Shown: positions 20,597-44,973 of the stretch, piece after piece
Position numbering within the stretch: the first letter of the stretch is position 1
Layout of the letters: each line of letters starts with the position of its first letter
Source of the DNA: Paramesorhizobium deserti
GTDB lineage: Bacteria > Pseudomonadota > Alphaproteobacteria > Rhizobiales > Rhizobiaceae
NCBI RefSeq assembly: GCF_001558695.1
Contig: NZ_LNTU01000034.1
Coordinates: 1 to 64,000 of the forward strand
Reading direction: 5' to 3'
DNA length: 64,000 nucleotides
Made by a program: the position numbers and the translations under genes
Notes under the pieces: generated by a model
What the model was told of the DNA's origin: nothing
Database searches by the model: none
What the model saw: the letters and a program-made list of their open reading frames with translations, nothing else

Positions 20597-20613
20597 GCGA
20601 AGCTTGCGCGAGG
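20597..20613 (-). promoter_or_regulatory. flagellar direct-repeat element before flhA (candidate FtcR box)
   Basis: On the minus strand CCTCGC-GCAAG-CTTCGC, followed after 9 bp by CTATTC. Same plan as the elements before fliF, flgB, flgE, DUF1217 and motA. It spans the short fliQ-flhA gap. Confidence 0.6.
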
Positions 20614-20619
20614 ATTTGC

Positions 20620-20886
20620 TCAGAAACCTTTTTCGATGCGCGAATAAGTGAGAAGCGTAAGCGCATTGATCTGCGCCCCGACGAAGGGCGCGGTAAAGGC
20701 CAGGACCACGAATATCACGATGATCTTGGGAATGAAGGTGAGCGTGATTTCCTGCACCTGCGTCAGTGCCTGGAAAAGTGCGATGCCGATGCCGGCGACC
20801 ATGGCGGCAAGAACGGCGGGACCGCTGGCAGCGAGGACCGTCCAGATCGCCGAATTGATGATGTCGAGCGCATCCGCCTCGTTCAT
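20620..20886 (-). CDS. fliQ: flagellar biosynthesis protein FliQ
   Basis: 88 residues from ATG 20886 (MNEADALD), two hydrophobic helices (WTVLAASGPAVLAAMVAGIGIALFQ and FIPKIIVIFVVLAFTAPFVG, with LTQVQEITLTF between, typical of FliQ/SpaQ). Longer upstream readings overlap flgD without homology. Export-gate subunit with FliP and FliR. Last gene of the flgE-flgK-flgL-flaF-flbT-flgD-fliQ run. Confidence 0.95.
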   Translation of the reverse strand: MNEADALDIINSAIWTVLAASGPAVLAAMVAGIGIALFQALTQVQEITLTFIPKIIVIFVVLAFTAPFVGAQINALTLLTYSRIEKGF

Positions 20887-20908
20887 CGCCCGCCTCCACC
20901 ACGCCGTC

Positions 20909-21322
20909 TCAGCTGATGGTGACGCCCGCCGTGATCGGCAGCTCGGTGCCGTCGGCGAGTTTCGCAACCATTCCGTCCTGCAGGATGCGCACGGATTTCA
21001 CTTCACCGCTGATCGTCCCGTCGGCGTTGGTAACCGTACGCCCGATCAGGCCATCGGCTTGAGAGAGCGCGGAATTGCCGAGAAGCTTCTCAAGCTTGCT
21101 GTTCATCTGCACGGCCTGTTCGACATTGGAGAATGTCGCCAGCTGCGAGACATATTGCGTAGAATCCATCGGCTGCGTCGGATCCTGGTTCTTCATCTGC
21201 GCGACGAGGAGTTTCAGGAAGGAATTATAATCCGCCGTGGCCGCGCTCGCCGCCGAACTGGTGGCTGTCGTCGACGTGTTGTTGTTCGTCGTCTGGTTGG
21301 AAACGCTGGGTGTGGTCGTCAT
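20909..21322 (-). CDS. flgD: flagellar hook capping protein FlgD
   Basis: 137 residues, short form. The conserved N-terminal export/capping segment is present: YNSFLKLLVAQMKNQDPTQPMDSTQYVSQLATFSNVEQ (given here only by its extent, about residues 31-68). A small beta domain (GRTVTNADGTISG) follows. FlgD caps the hook while FlgE subunits assemble. It overlaps flbT by 4 bp. Confidence 0.93.
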   Translation of the reverse strand: MTTTPSVSNQTTNNNTSTTATSSAASAATADYNSFLKLLVAQMKNQDPTQPMDSTQYVSQLATFSNVEQAVQMNSKLEKLLGNSALSQADGLIGRTVTNADGTISGEVKSVRILQDGMVAKLADGTELPITAGVTIS

Positions 21323-21789
21323 GCCACGGCCTCCGAAACCTGGGTCAGAATTCTGGGTTCGCGCTTTGCTTCATCGCTGCCCATGATCGCTGCCTCGATG
21401 GGATAAAGGCCGCGAAGGGTCTTCAGCGCCTCGAACACGCGGCCCTGGTGGACGAGTTCGTCGGTGAGCTTCAGTCCTTTCAGGATCTCCGCATCCTCGA
21501 ACGTCTTCAGCATCGCCTTCAGCATGGCCTTGAAGGTTTCGCCTGCCTGCTCTGCGACGGCCGGATTGATGAGCATGATTTGCGCCGCGAAATAGAGCTG
21601 ACGCAGAGGTGTCGTCGTCTGTTCGGGCTGGAGAACATGGTTCTCCAGAAGAAAGGTCGCATCGTTCAGGAGTTCGAGCGAAACCTTGCGGTCGGCACGG
21701 AGCACCGCCCCGTTTATATAGATTTTCTCGCCCGCCCGCAGCGAAAGGCGCATGGTATTTTTGGACGCCGATGCCTTCTCTTGTGCCAT
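21319..21789 (-). CDS. flbT: flagellin synthesis regulator FlbT
   Basis: 156 residues. FlbT is an alphaproteobacterial post-transcriptional regulator that in Caulobacter acts on the flagellin mRNA 5' leader. The family N-terminus is visible (MRLSLRAGEKIYINGAVLRADRKVSLELLND), followed by a helical C-terminal half. Immediately abuts flaF, its functional antagonist. A nested inverted repeat upstream of the flagellin gene (34804-34852) is a possible RNA target. Confidence 0.92.
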   Translation of the reverse strand: MAQEKASASKNTMRLSLRAGEKIYINGAVLRADRKVSLELLNDATFLLENHVLQPEQTTTPLRQLYFAAQIMLINPAVAEQAGETFKAMLKAMLKTFEDAEILKGLKLTDELVHQGRVFEALKTLRGLYPIEAAIMGSDEAKREPRILTQVSEAVA

Positions 21790-43379: not shown

Positions 43380-44101
43380 GCCTTCGAGCCGAGCGTCTTG
43401 ACCGCTTCAGTGAGCGTGTTTTCCTGCTGCCGCAGCAGCGCATCCACCTGCTCGAAGGCGCGGCTGACGCTGATGAGCCGCGTCATCTCCATCACGCCGT
43501 CGACATTGGAGCCTTCGATCGCTCCCTGCACCACGCCGACGCTCATGTCATCGACCACCGGCTGGGCCGGAACATCGGGGATGACGGCGGAATTTCCGGC
43601 ATAGATGAGCTTCGCGTCAGACGCGATCGAGAACAATCCGACGCCGCCCACCTGCGCGCCATTCTGATAGATCGCACCGTCCGAGGAGATTTTCGGTGCT
43701 CCCCCATTGGGATTGATGACGATGGGCTGGCCGCCCGCATCGAGCACCGGATGGCCCATGACCGAGACGAGCTCTCCCTCCGGCGTCATCCGCATCCGTC
43801 CGTCGCGCGTATAGACCTGCCCCTGCGGTGTGGCGAGCGACAGCCAGGCATCGCCCTTGACGGCGACATCGAGCGGATTGTCCGTCTGGATGATCGGGCC
43901 CGGCTCGGTGCGGATATAGCTCTTCCCTGCCGAGGCGAAATGAACGTCGTCGCTCGCCTTCATGGAAACGAGCGTATCGAATTTCGTACCCTCGCCGCGA
44001 AAGCCGGGGGTCGACATATTGGCGACGTTGTTCGCGATGGCATCGAGGCGGCGTTCCAGCGTTATCTGCGAGGAAAGCCCGACATAGATGGAATTCTGCA
44101 T
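43376..44101 (-). CDS. flgF: flagellar proximal rod protein FlgF
   Basis: 241 residues. N-terminal signature SSQITLERRLDAIANNVANMSTPGFRGEGTKF, then VAVKGDAWLSLATPQGQVYTRDGRMRM, and C-terminal VMEMTRLISVSRAFEQVDALLRQQE, all typical of FlgF. It lies 3 bp after the DUF1217 gene and overlaps fliI. Confidence 0.93.
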   Translation of the reverse strand: MQNSIYVGLSSQITLERRLDAIANNVANMSTPGFRGEGTKFDTLVSMKASDDVHFASAGKSYIRTEPGPIIQTDNPLDVAVKGDAWLSLATPQGQVYTRDGRMRMTPEGELVSVMGHPVLDAGGQPIVINPNGGAPKISSDGAIYQNGAQVGGVGLFSIASDAKLIYAGNSAVIPDVPAQPVVDDMSVGVVQGAIEGSNVDGVMEMTRLISVSRAFEQVDALLRQQENTLTEAVKTLGSKA

Positions 44102-44104
44102 GGA

Positions 44105-44893
44105 TCACCTGCCGCCGGGTTTGAAGGACTGGAGAGTGGTCAGGATGTCTGTGGAAATTCCCACGGACGAGGTACCGCCCAGAAGCAAAGAGGCGATCGA
44201 GGCGGCGCTGCCCATCGAGGGATTGTTCATCTCATACAGCGCCGTGAAGCGTGTCATGAATTTTGCCAGCTCGTCCGGATCGGAGAGTGATGAAATATCG
44301 AGCCGCTGCTCGATCATCGCCGCCTGCTTGTCGATATCGGCGTAGGATACCGCCGAAGGTATGCCAAGCGCCGTCTGCACGACGGTCAGGAGCGCCTTGT
44401 CGCCGAGAATCTCATAGGCGCTGGTAAGCCCTGCCACCTTGCGCTCGAAATAGAGCGCGAGCCGCACGCCTTCGTTCTGACTGCCCGCTTCCTCCTCTAG
44501 CGTCTGGCGGACATATTTGTCCACCGCACCCTGCTTCGCCCGGTCGAAACTGGTCGTCGTCTCGCCAAGGGCAGCAAAATCGAAGGTCGTGGCGAATTCC
44601 TTGTAACGCTTGTCGACCAGCGTATTGGCCATGCTCTCGCTGTCGCTTACCCCTTCGGTCAGAACCTTGCGGATGAACGCCTTGGCATAGGCCATATCCT
44701 CCAGGCCGTATGCCTTCATGGCATATCTGTAGAGACGGTCGTCAGCCATGAAATCGTCGATCGATTTCACATTGCCGATATTCTCCATGTAATAGGCTGT
44801 TTCCCGCTCGACCAGCGGTTCCTGTGATACGCGCGCCAGGGATCGCGTCAAGTTGGACGCAATCAGGCGATAGCTCGTCAAAGTGTCGACCAT
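44105..44893 (-). CDS. DUF1217 family flagellar protein
   Basis: 262 residues, almost entirely helical. It matches my recollection of the DUF1217 family found in alphaproteobacterial flagellar clusters: SIDDFMADDRLYRYAMKAYGLEDMAYAKAFIRKVLTEG (extent about residues 44-81), VDKRYKEFATTF and FYERKVAGLTSAYEILGDKALL-like blocks. Function is unknown. First gene of the unit DUF1217-flgF-fliI-orf192, with its own copy of the shared element upstream, divergent from motA. Confidence 0.85.
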   Translation of the reverse strand: MVDTLTSYRLIASNLTRSLARVSQEPLVERETAYYMENIGNVKSIDDFMADDRLYRYAMKAYGLEDMAYAKAFIRKVLTEGVSDSESMANTLVDKRYKEFATTFDFAALGETTTSFDRAKQGAVDKYVRQTLEEEAGSQNEGVRLALYFERKVAGLTSAYEILGDKALLTVVQTALGIPSAVSYADIDKQAAMIEQRLDISSLSDPDELAKFMTRFTALYEMNNPSMGSAASIASLLLGGTSSVGISTDILTTLQSFKPGGR

Positions 44894-44931
44894 GCCGCTG
44901 CCCCTTTAATCAATAGCGGCATTTATCGTTT

Positions 44932-44973
44932 GAGAAGCTTGCCCGAAGCTGGCTTGGGTCAAGCAAGCTTCGC
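44932..44973. promoter_or_regulatory. two opposed flagellar direct-repeat elements between DUF1217 and motA
   Basis: Minus strand 44932-44948: CTTCGG-GCAAG-CTTCTC, facing DUF1217, with CGATAA 9 bp on. Plus strand 44957-44973: GGTCAA-GCAAG-CTTCGC, facing motA. Together they form the inverted repeat GAAGCTTGC/GCAAGCTTC. One element per divergent unit supports a directional promoter role. Confidence 0.65.

Follow-up and report, generated by a model that had tools for sequence, protein, structure and literature searches.

An 11-bp direct repeat with a fixed -10 hexamer before the flagellar units of Paramesorhizobium deserti, a probable operator-promoter of Rem/FtcR

A 64,000-nt stretch of contig NZ_LNTU01000034.1 of Paramesorhizobium deserti (hereafter the window, one contig of the 5.48-Mb genome, which comprises 41 contigs) contains a flagellar gene cluster in which a short element, the box, precedes the flagellar transcription units. 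The box is an 11-bp direct repeat with the unit CAAGCTTCGCR and the core RCAAG, and it ends 10 bp before a TAnnnT hexamer. Judging from the sequence, it is highly probable that each copy serves one flagellar unit as its operator and promoter and that the unit is activated by Rem/FtcR, a regulator encoded in the same cluster.

Box Sites in the Window

A preliminary description of this DNA listed six GCAAG elements before flagellar units. All six were located, at positions 20607, 26073, 33784, 41396 and 44942 of the minus strand and 44963 of the plus strand, and the first genes of the units were identified with Pfam. The listed sites are all real, while a seventh, weaker one had been missed. Scanning of both strands of the window with a 32-nt matrix derived from other genomes placed the six sites on top, followed by the seventh, with the rest scoring 5.3 or less. 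In the list below, window scores refer to this matrix, and genome ranks and bits to model R1 (see Specificity within the Genome).

33763..33794, minus strand: fliF box and -10, CTAAC-TTCGCGCAAG-CTTCGCTCG-CTATGGT, -10 TATGGT at 33764-33769; window score 36.0; genome rank 1, 25.7 bits
20586..20617, minus strand: flhA box and -10, in the gap past the preceding open reading frame (ORF); window score 33.1; genome rank 2, 21.8 bits
41375..41406, minus strand: flgB box and -10, CAAGT-CTCGCGCAAG...GTAGGTT; window score 26.4; genome rank 3, 18.5 bits
44964..44995, plus strand: motA box and -10 in the corrected register, CAAGC-TTCGCACAAG...CTATTGC; window score 25.5; genome rank 4, 17.4 bits
26052..26083, minus strand: flgE box and -10, ACAGG-TTCACGCAAG...CTAGCCT; window score 25.7; genome rank 5, 16.1 bits, E 0.08
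44921..44952, minus strand: box of the DUF1217/flgF unit, CCAGC-TTCGGGCAAG-CTTC, -10 without the first T; window score 11.1; 8.5 bits, partial match
17255..17286, minus strand: seventh, weaker box before the flgJ-like gene, -10 TAAAGT; window score 8.8

The plain 16-nt pattern by itself is only mildly unusual in the window, where five matches with up to three mismatches were found versus a mean of 2.44 expected (8 of 100 shuffles reach five); the profile evidence is strong.

At the six sites listed earlier, the start codon lies 45–56 bp from the first base of RCAAG. The register previously given for motA, GGTCAA-GCAAG-CTTCGC, proved to be one 11-bp unit too far upstream: R1 sets this site at 44966-44992, and the aligned CAAGC-TTCGCACAAG occupies 44964-44978. 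Since CTATTG stands at the standard spacing in the corrected register, the CTA-like hexamer, formerly noticed in five of the six sites, is present in the sixth too. The -10 of the DUF1217 site is poor, although its repeat is good.

No box was found within 300 bp upstream of the flagellin gene (33889-34686; best value -14.0) or at 31 other gene starts scored in or beside the cluster (best values -0.8 or lower). For the window, this agrees with the earlier suggestion that the flagellin gene lacks the element and belongs to a later class. In some relatives, degenerate box-like elements occur 145–193 bp before flagellin genes; these were seen at 11 loci, mostly of Mesorhizobium (L050, L063, L068, L069, L071, L076, L077, L079, L084, L085 and L108).

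Architecture of the Element

The 11-bp period typical of OmpR/PhoB-type sites, to which the preliminary description had pointed, was recovered from other genomes: lag 11 was the best of lags 1–16 in each of the three trained classes (fliF, flhA and flgE) and in the pooled sites. TTCGC and RCAAG are conserved columns in all three classes and CTT in fliF and flhA; in addition, the T, the A and the last T of TAnnnT are conserved at fixed offsets. The column tables of these sites contain no TTGAC-like block upstream of the -10. When the T of the -10 is set at -12, the two units extend from about -37 to -16, without a recognizable -35 hexamer.

Two repeats without a -35 hexamer, at a fixed distance from the -10, are the geometry of PhoB-type class II activation. 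The data support a description of the element as a PhoB-type activator-dependent promoter with the repeat in the place of the -35 and a sigma70-type -10. The PhoB box and OmpR/PhoB class II promoters, as generally known for PhoB, likewise have two 11-bp direct repeats for the -35 at a fixed -10 distance, but the bases of the PhoB box differ, and here the activator lacks the usual aspartate and the targets are flagellar. With its fixed -10 spacing, the element could also be a core promoter read by a special sigma factor instead of an activator site. However, TAnnnT is the sigma70 pattern and the upstream 11-bp repeat of about 22 bp exceeds a -35 hexamer, which makes a special sigma factor very unlikely.

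The mean numbers of matches to the unit, upstream (of 11) and downstream (of 10), respectively, were 7.6 and 9.2 for fliF, 8.0 and 8.4 for flhA, 8.4 and 6.1 for flgE, 8.9 and 5.8 for motA, 8.1 and 6.9 for flgB, and 7.4 and 6.3 for DUF1217. According to these values, the downstream unit is the stronger one in fliF and flhA and the upstream unit in flgE, motA and, slightly, flgB. Such gene-specific versions recur across genera; they also include DUF1217, with its repeat intact but its -10 poor, and the flgJ-like gene, whose repeat is deviant.

Conservation in Relatives

For 80 named loci, 177 upstream regions were obtained (fliF 53, flhA 50, flgE 74). A strict test demanded that 9 or more of the 10 positions of TTCGCRCAAG match and that TA stand exactly 20 bases past the first base of this sequence. 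The box with its -10 passed it in 51 of 53 fliF, 43 of 50 flhA and 64 of 74 flgE regions, 158 of 177 in total, which bears out the expected conservation in the flagellar clusters of relatives; the named loci are not independent, because many of them are close kin. None of the 177 reverse complements and none of 3540 Markov sequences passed.

The motA gene was found in 26 of the 28 genomes that hold the named loci, and CAAG with TA at register in 23 of the 26; flgB was found in 20 of 26 regions, and each of these 20 shows CAAG and TA at register. The DUF1217 gene was compared in 24 relatives; CAAG stands at the chosen register in 19 (in L157 probably by chance), in five of them together with TA. 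CAAG is missing in L155, L156, L158, L159 and L162; for four of these the alignment starts only at residue 28, which leaves the position of the gene start uncertain. For the flgJ-like gene, inspection by eye showed [C/T]AAG at the best-scoring register in 39 of 41 relatives; a score of 8 bits is reached by 18 of the 41.

The box was found from Bartonella to Sinorhizobium. Shared ancestry or composition without a regulatory role could be invoked, given that the relatives are non-independent and many named loci are close kin. Yet the register is fixed in six non-homologous promoters across this range and the Markov sequences all failed, so that this explanation appears extremely improbable.

In the Sinorhizobium/Ensifer loci L082-L105, extra boxes precede ORFs resembling window 31352-32005 (11 loci) and fliK-like ORFs (11 loci), indicating that the regulon varies between genera. 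Outside the flagellar cluster, one S. medicae sequence (L281, 1501-1530) carries an 18.4-bit box with CTAGG resembling a -10; it lies between pcm and the gene of a LysM lipoprotein and is unexplained or a chance match.

Specificity within the Genome

Model R1 was built from 91 sites of other genomes, with at least four base differences between sites of one class and none from the window. Its training classes were the fliF, flhA and flgE promoters, the flgB and motA promoters standing outside the training. In the whole genome of P. deserti, the five best R1 matches were the fliF, flhA, flgB, motA and flgE sites (25.7–16.1 bits; E 6e-5 to 0.08, the E-values being rough), and the next ones were non-flagellar (15.3 and 14.9 bits). 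Thus, the flagellar sites led the genome search and the box was nearly absent elsewhere. The numbers of first-look candidates scored were 150 of 3127 in this genome, 118 per genome in relatives and 48 in the order-wide scan, and weaker genuine sites may therefore be missed.

The plain pattern with up to three mismatches had ten matches in the genome, the flagellar ones being those with zero, one and two mismatches and one of the seven with three; the reversed control pattern had 13. Three further candidates were rejected. The match at window 63796 on the plus strand (11.4 bits) lies inside a permease ORF and is attributed to chance; C23:237003 falls within an ABC-transporter ORF and C23:218947 precedes a DegT-type ORF but has no -10; both were likewise judged to be chance matches.

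Rem/FtcR and Its Co-Occurrence with the Box

The proposed binder is encoded by the following gene:

26152..26835, minus strand: Rem/FtcR ortholog (Trans_reg_C, E 2.5e-15)

This ORF, whose product has a winged-helix domain of the OmpR/PhoB type, adjoins flgE inside the flagellar cluster; its receiver match is below the curated cut-off. The protein is 63–72% identical to five family relatives, and the closest named Rem loci are those of Phyllobacterium leguminum and 'Brucella endophytica' (93% identity). Full-length relatives in the PDB are RegX3, PrrA and DrrD, and the matches include, by title, the polymerase-bound related regulators 8jo2 (BasR), 9ji3 (PhoP) and 9dvt (RpaA). The receiver has glutamate opposite the phospho-acceptor aspartate of RegX3, which suggests that the amount of Rem, not phosphorylation, probably sets the output. 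In an alignment of 23 proteins, two relatives (L019 and L025) carry aspartate at this position. Rem is described as an aspartate-less regulator that works without phosphorylation and activates class II genes (PMC9812332), and MirA as its inhibitor (PMC12632262, PMC9731437). The regulator family and the class II flagellar targets considered here are the same as those of the class IB regulator Rem/FtcR in PMC9812332, PMC9456535 and PMC12632262.

In 150 genomes of the order, Rem orthologs were found in 36 (E ≤ 4.1e-49; next best 4.4e-22). R1 matches at E ≤ 0.01 occurred in 21 of the 36 genomes with Rem vs. 1 of the 114 without it, and at E ≤ 0.05 in 27 of 36 vs. 10 of 114 (about 6 expected by chance). 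The 36 include the P. deserti genome and G148 (training locus L051); without both, the counts are 19 of 34 and 25 of 34, respectively. Fisher's test on the full counts gives p < 1e-13, the genomes not being independent.

FliF proteins fall into two groups, one of 31 genomes with E ≤ 1.9e-114, all with Rem, and the others at 5e-76 or weaker. Regions of 2.2 kb, shorter at contig ends, were compared upstream of 30 Rem-type fliF genes, P. deserti excluded, and of 30 other fliF genes. The best box reached at least 10 bits at 21 of the 30 Rem-type genes vs. none of the 30 others (medians 16.7 vs. -6.7); 12 of these 21 boxes lie within 120 bp of fliF and nine more than 1.2 kb upstream. Three second-group fliF genes lie within Rem genomes (G105 and the second copies of G108 and G032) and none of the three has the box, which thus accompanies the Rem-type gene set. 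In G032 and G108, where both fliF copies were scored, it is upstream of the Rem-type copy only. Two fliF genes of different lineage were seen in G032, G108, G130 and G135.

These counts bear on whether the box could be bound by an OmpR-family regulator other than Rem that also uses an 11-bp repeat (ChvI-, FeuP- or CtrA-like). The candidate FeuP site of S. meliloti, TTCA-N7-TTCA (PMC3616915), is also a direct repeat of identical period, belonging to a response regulator of a related bacterium; its bases and targets differ, and the three de novo motifs that the accessible text of that paper names do not include the box. For CtrA, only indirect action on flgBCDH and fliEFIL in Sinorhizobium is described (PMC4433202). 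OmpR-type matches are present in all 150 genomes, yet the box tracks Rem, and such a regulator is an improbable binder.

VisN/VisR and Other Candidate Controllers

The box might instead be bound by the LuxR-type pair VisN/VisR, which are class IA regulators in Sinorhizobium. Judging by the gene order, we took two LuxR-like ORFs located next to fliF in S. medicae as VisN and VisR. Among 19 genomes, the four of Sinorhizobium/Ensifer gave clear orthologs of both, and G160, G162 and G166 have a divergent adjacent pair. In P. deserti and five close relatives (G150-G153 and G155), only LuxR-domain matches were obtained and VisN/VisR orthologs were not found; Bartonella (G148, G156, G157 and G158, where G148 and G157 are one record) had no match at E ≤ 0.001. 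According to PMC9812332, VisNR stand at the top of flagellar control in Rhizobium, Sinorhizobium and Agrobacterium. Nevertheless, the promoters of P. deserti and Bartonella carry the box, and the box is a direct repeat; binding by VisN/VisR has little probability.

A LuxR-type protein with an autoinducer-binding domain is encoded beside the flagellar cluster (window 50390-51181, minus strand). With VisN/VisR not found, this protein may be what controls rem in this lineage.

Comparison with the Published FtcR Motif

According to PMC9456535, chromatin immunoprecipitation sequencing (ChIP-seq) identified 363 FtcR sites in B. melitensis, and the best motif, TGTGGGCA, was found in 118 of them. The same source describes electrophoretic mobility shift assays (EMSAs) with the mutated motif at ftcR and betI, recounts the binding of FtcR upstream of fliF (Leonard) and states that its own data agree with FtcR at fliF. 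The regulator is the same, but this motif is unrelated in sequence to the box and has no 11-bp repeat.

Exact TGTGGGCA was absent from all seven window regions and occurred in 1 of 256 upstream regions (300 bp) of relatives (flhA 1/50, flgE 0/73, fliF 0/53, ftcR 0/80), with about three expected. With one mismatch it was found in 50 of the 256, no excess over chance. The motif is not enriched at flagellar promoters, and the flagellar operator would therefore be a different element. One-mismatch copies about 90 bp upstream of ftcR in seven of eight Brucella/Ochrobactrum-type loci fit the ftcR result reported in PMC9456535.

A box of this form was not found in the open-access literature that was searched; the original Rem and FtcR reports lie outside that search and may describe the site. 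Six pieces of the box (10–17 nt) were also compared with the literature, and no title on rhizobial or Brucella motility was among the matches listed.

Flagellar Genes and Other Features of the Window

The first genes of the units with a box are as follows:

18472..20562, minus strand: flhA (Pfam FHIPEP)
24754..26025, minus strand: flgE (Pfam FlgE_D2)
32002..33735, minus strand: fliF (Pfam YscJ_FliF)
40960..41340, minus strand: flgB-type rod protein gene (Pfam Flg_bb_rod), named flgB by position
44105..44893, minus strand: DUF1217 gene, heading the unit with flgF (Pfam DUF1217)
45028..45900, plus strand: motA (Pfam MotA_N, MotA_ExbB)
16647..17222, minus strand: flgJ-like gene (Pfam Rod-binding, E 7.7e-8)

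The flgJ-like gene is followed by a flgN-like ORF (FlgN 20.8 bits, below the curated cut-off of 30.5).

A near-palindrome, CATCTCCCCC-GCAAG-(G/A)GGGGAGAT, is present in two copies on opposite strands about 95 bp apart (39175-39198 and 39266-39290) and is possibly a repeated hairpin element. In addition, the genome, which is 99.95% complete and has a full flagellar cluster, gave no CheW (PF01584) match at E ≤ 0.001, while control matches were obtained in 7 of 14 genomes. P. deserti thus apparently has flagella without classical chemotaxis.

Proposed Mechanism and Significance

The repeat period, the spacing, the conservation, the genome specificity, the co-occurrence with Rem and the presence of the box where VisN/VisR orthologs were not found were all obtained here. 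They support the proposal of the preliminary description that the element is the FtcR/Rem site or a combined activator-promoter element.

Several points weigh against assigning the box to Rem. Nine of the 36 Rem genomes have no R1 match at E ≤ 0.05, and ten of the 114 Rem-less genomes have one. Nine of the 30 Rem-type fliF genes lack a 10-bit box within 2.2 kb, and the nine boxes more than 1.2 kb upstream precede genes without annotation here. Rem, the box and the flagellar genes may be co-inherited, and their co-occurrence is therefore no proof of contact. The training sites in relatives were found with the motif of the preliminary description as a seed. The published ChIP motif of FtcR differs and is backed by EMSAs (PMC9456535). 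Finally, we infer the binding of Rem, the activation, the start sites and the head-to-tail arrangement from sequence.

If the assignment to Rem holds, two Rem protomers would sit head-to-tail on the two 11-bp units, at about -37 to -16. There Rem would substitute for a -35 box and bring sigma70 RNA polymerase to the TAnnnT, which begins 10 bp past RCAAG, and Rem itself would be controlled via its amount and anti-activators such as MirA.

The box provides an operator of the order's flagellar master regulator that can be searched for; it predicts the direct Rem regulon and its start sites per base, and suggests a way for an aspartate-less regulator to replace the -35 box. It also disagrees with the single FtcR motif that our search found in print. 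Tentatively, the gene-specific promoter versions may determine in which order and how strongly class II genes are expressed while the amount of phosphorylation-independent Rem rises. This would amount to an affinity-coded assembly programme across the order, with an element other than the published FtcR motif as the flagellar operator.

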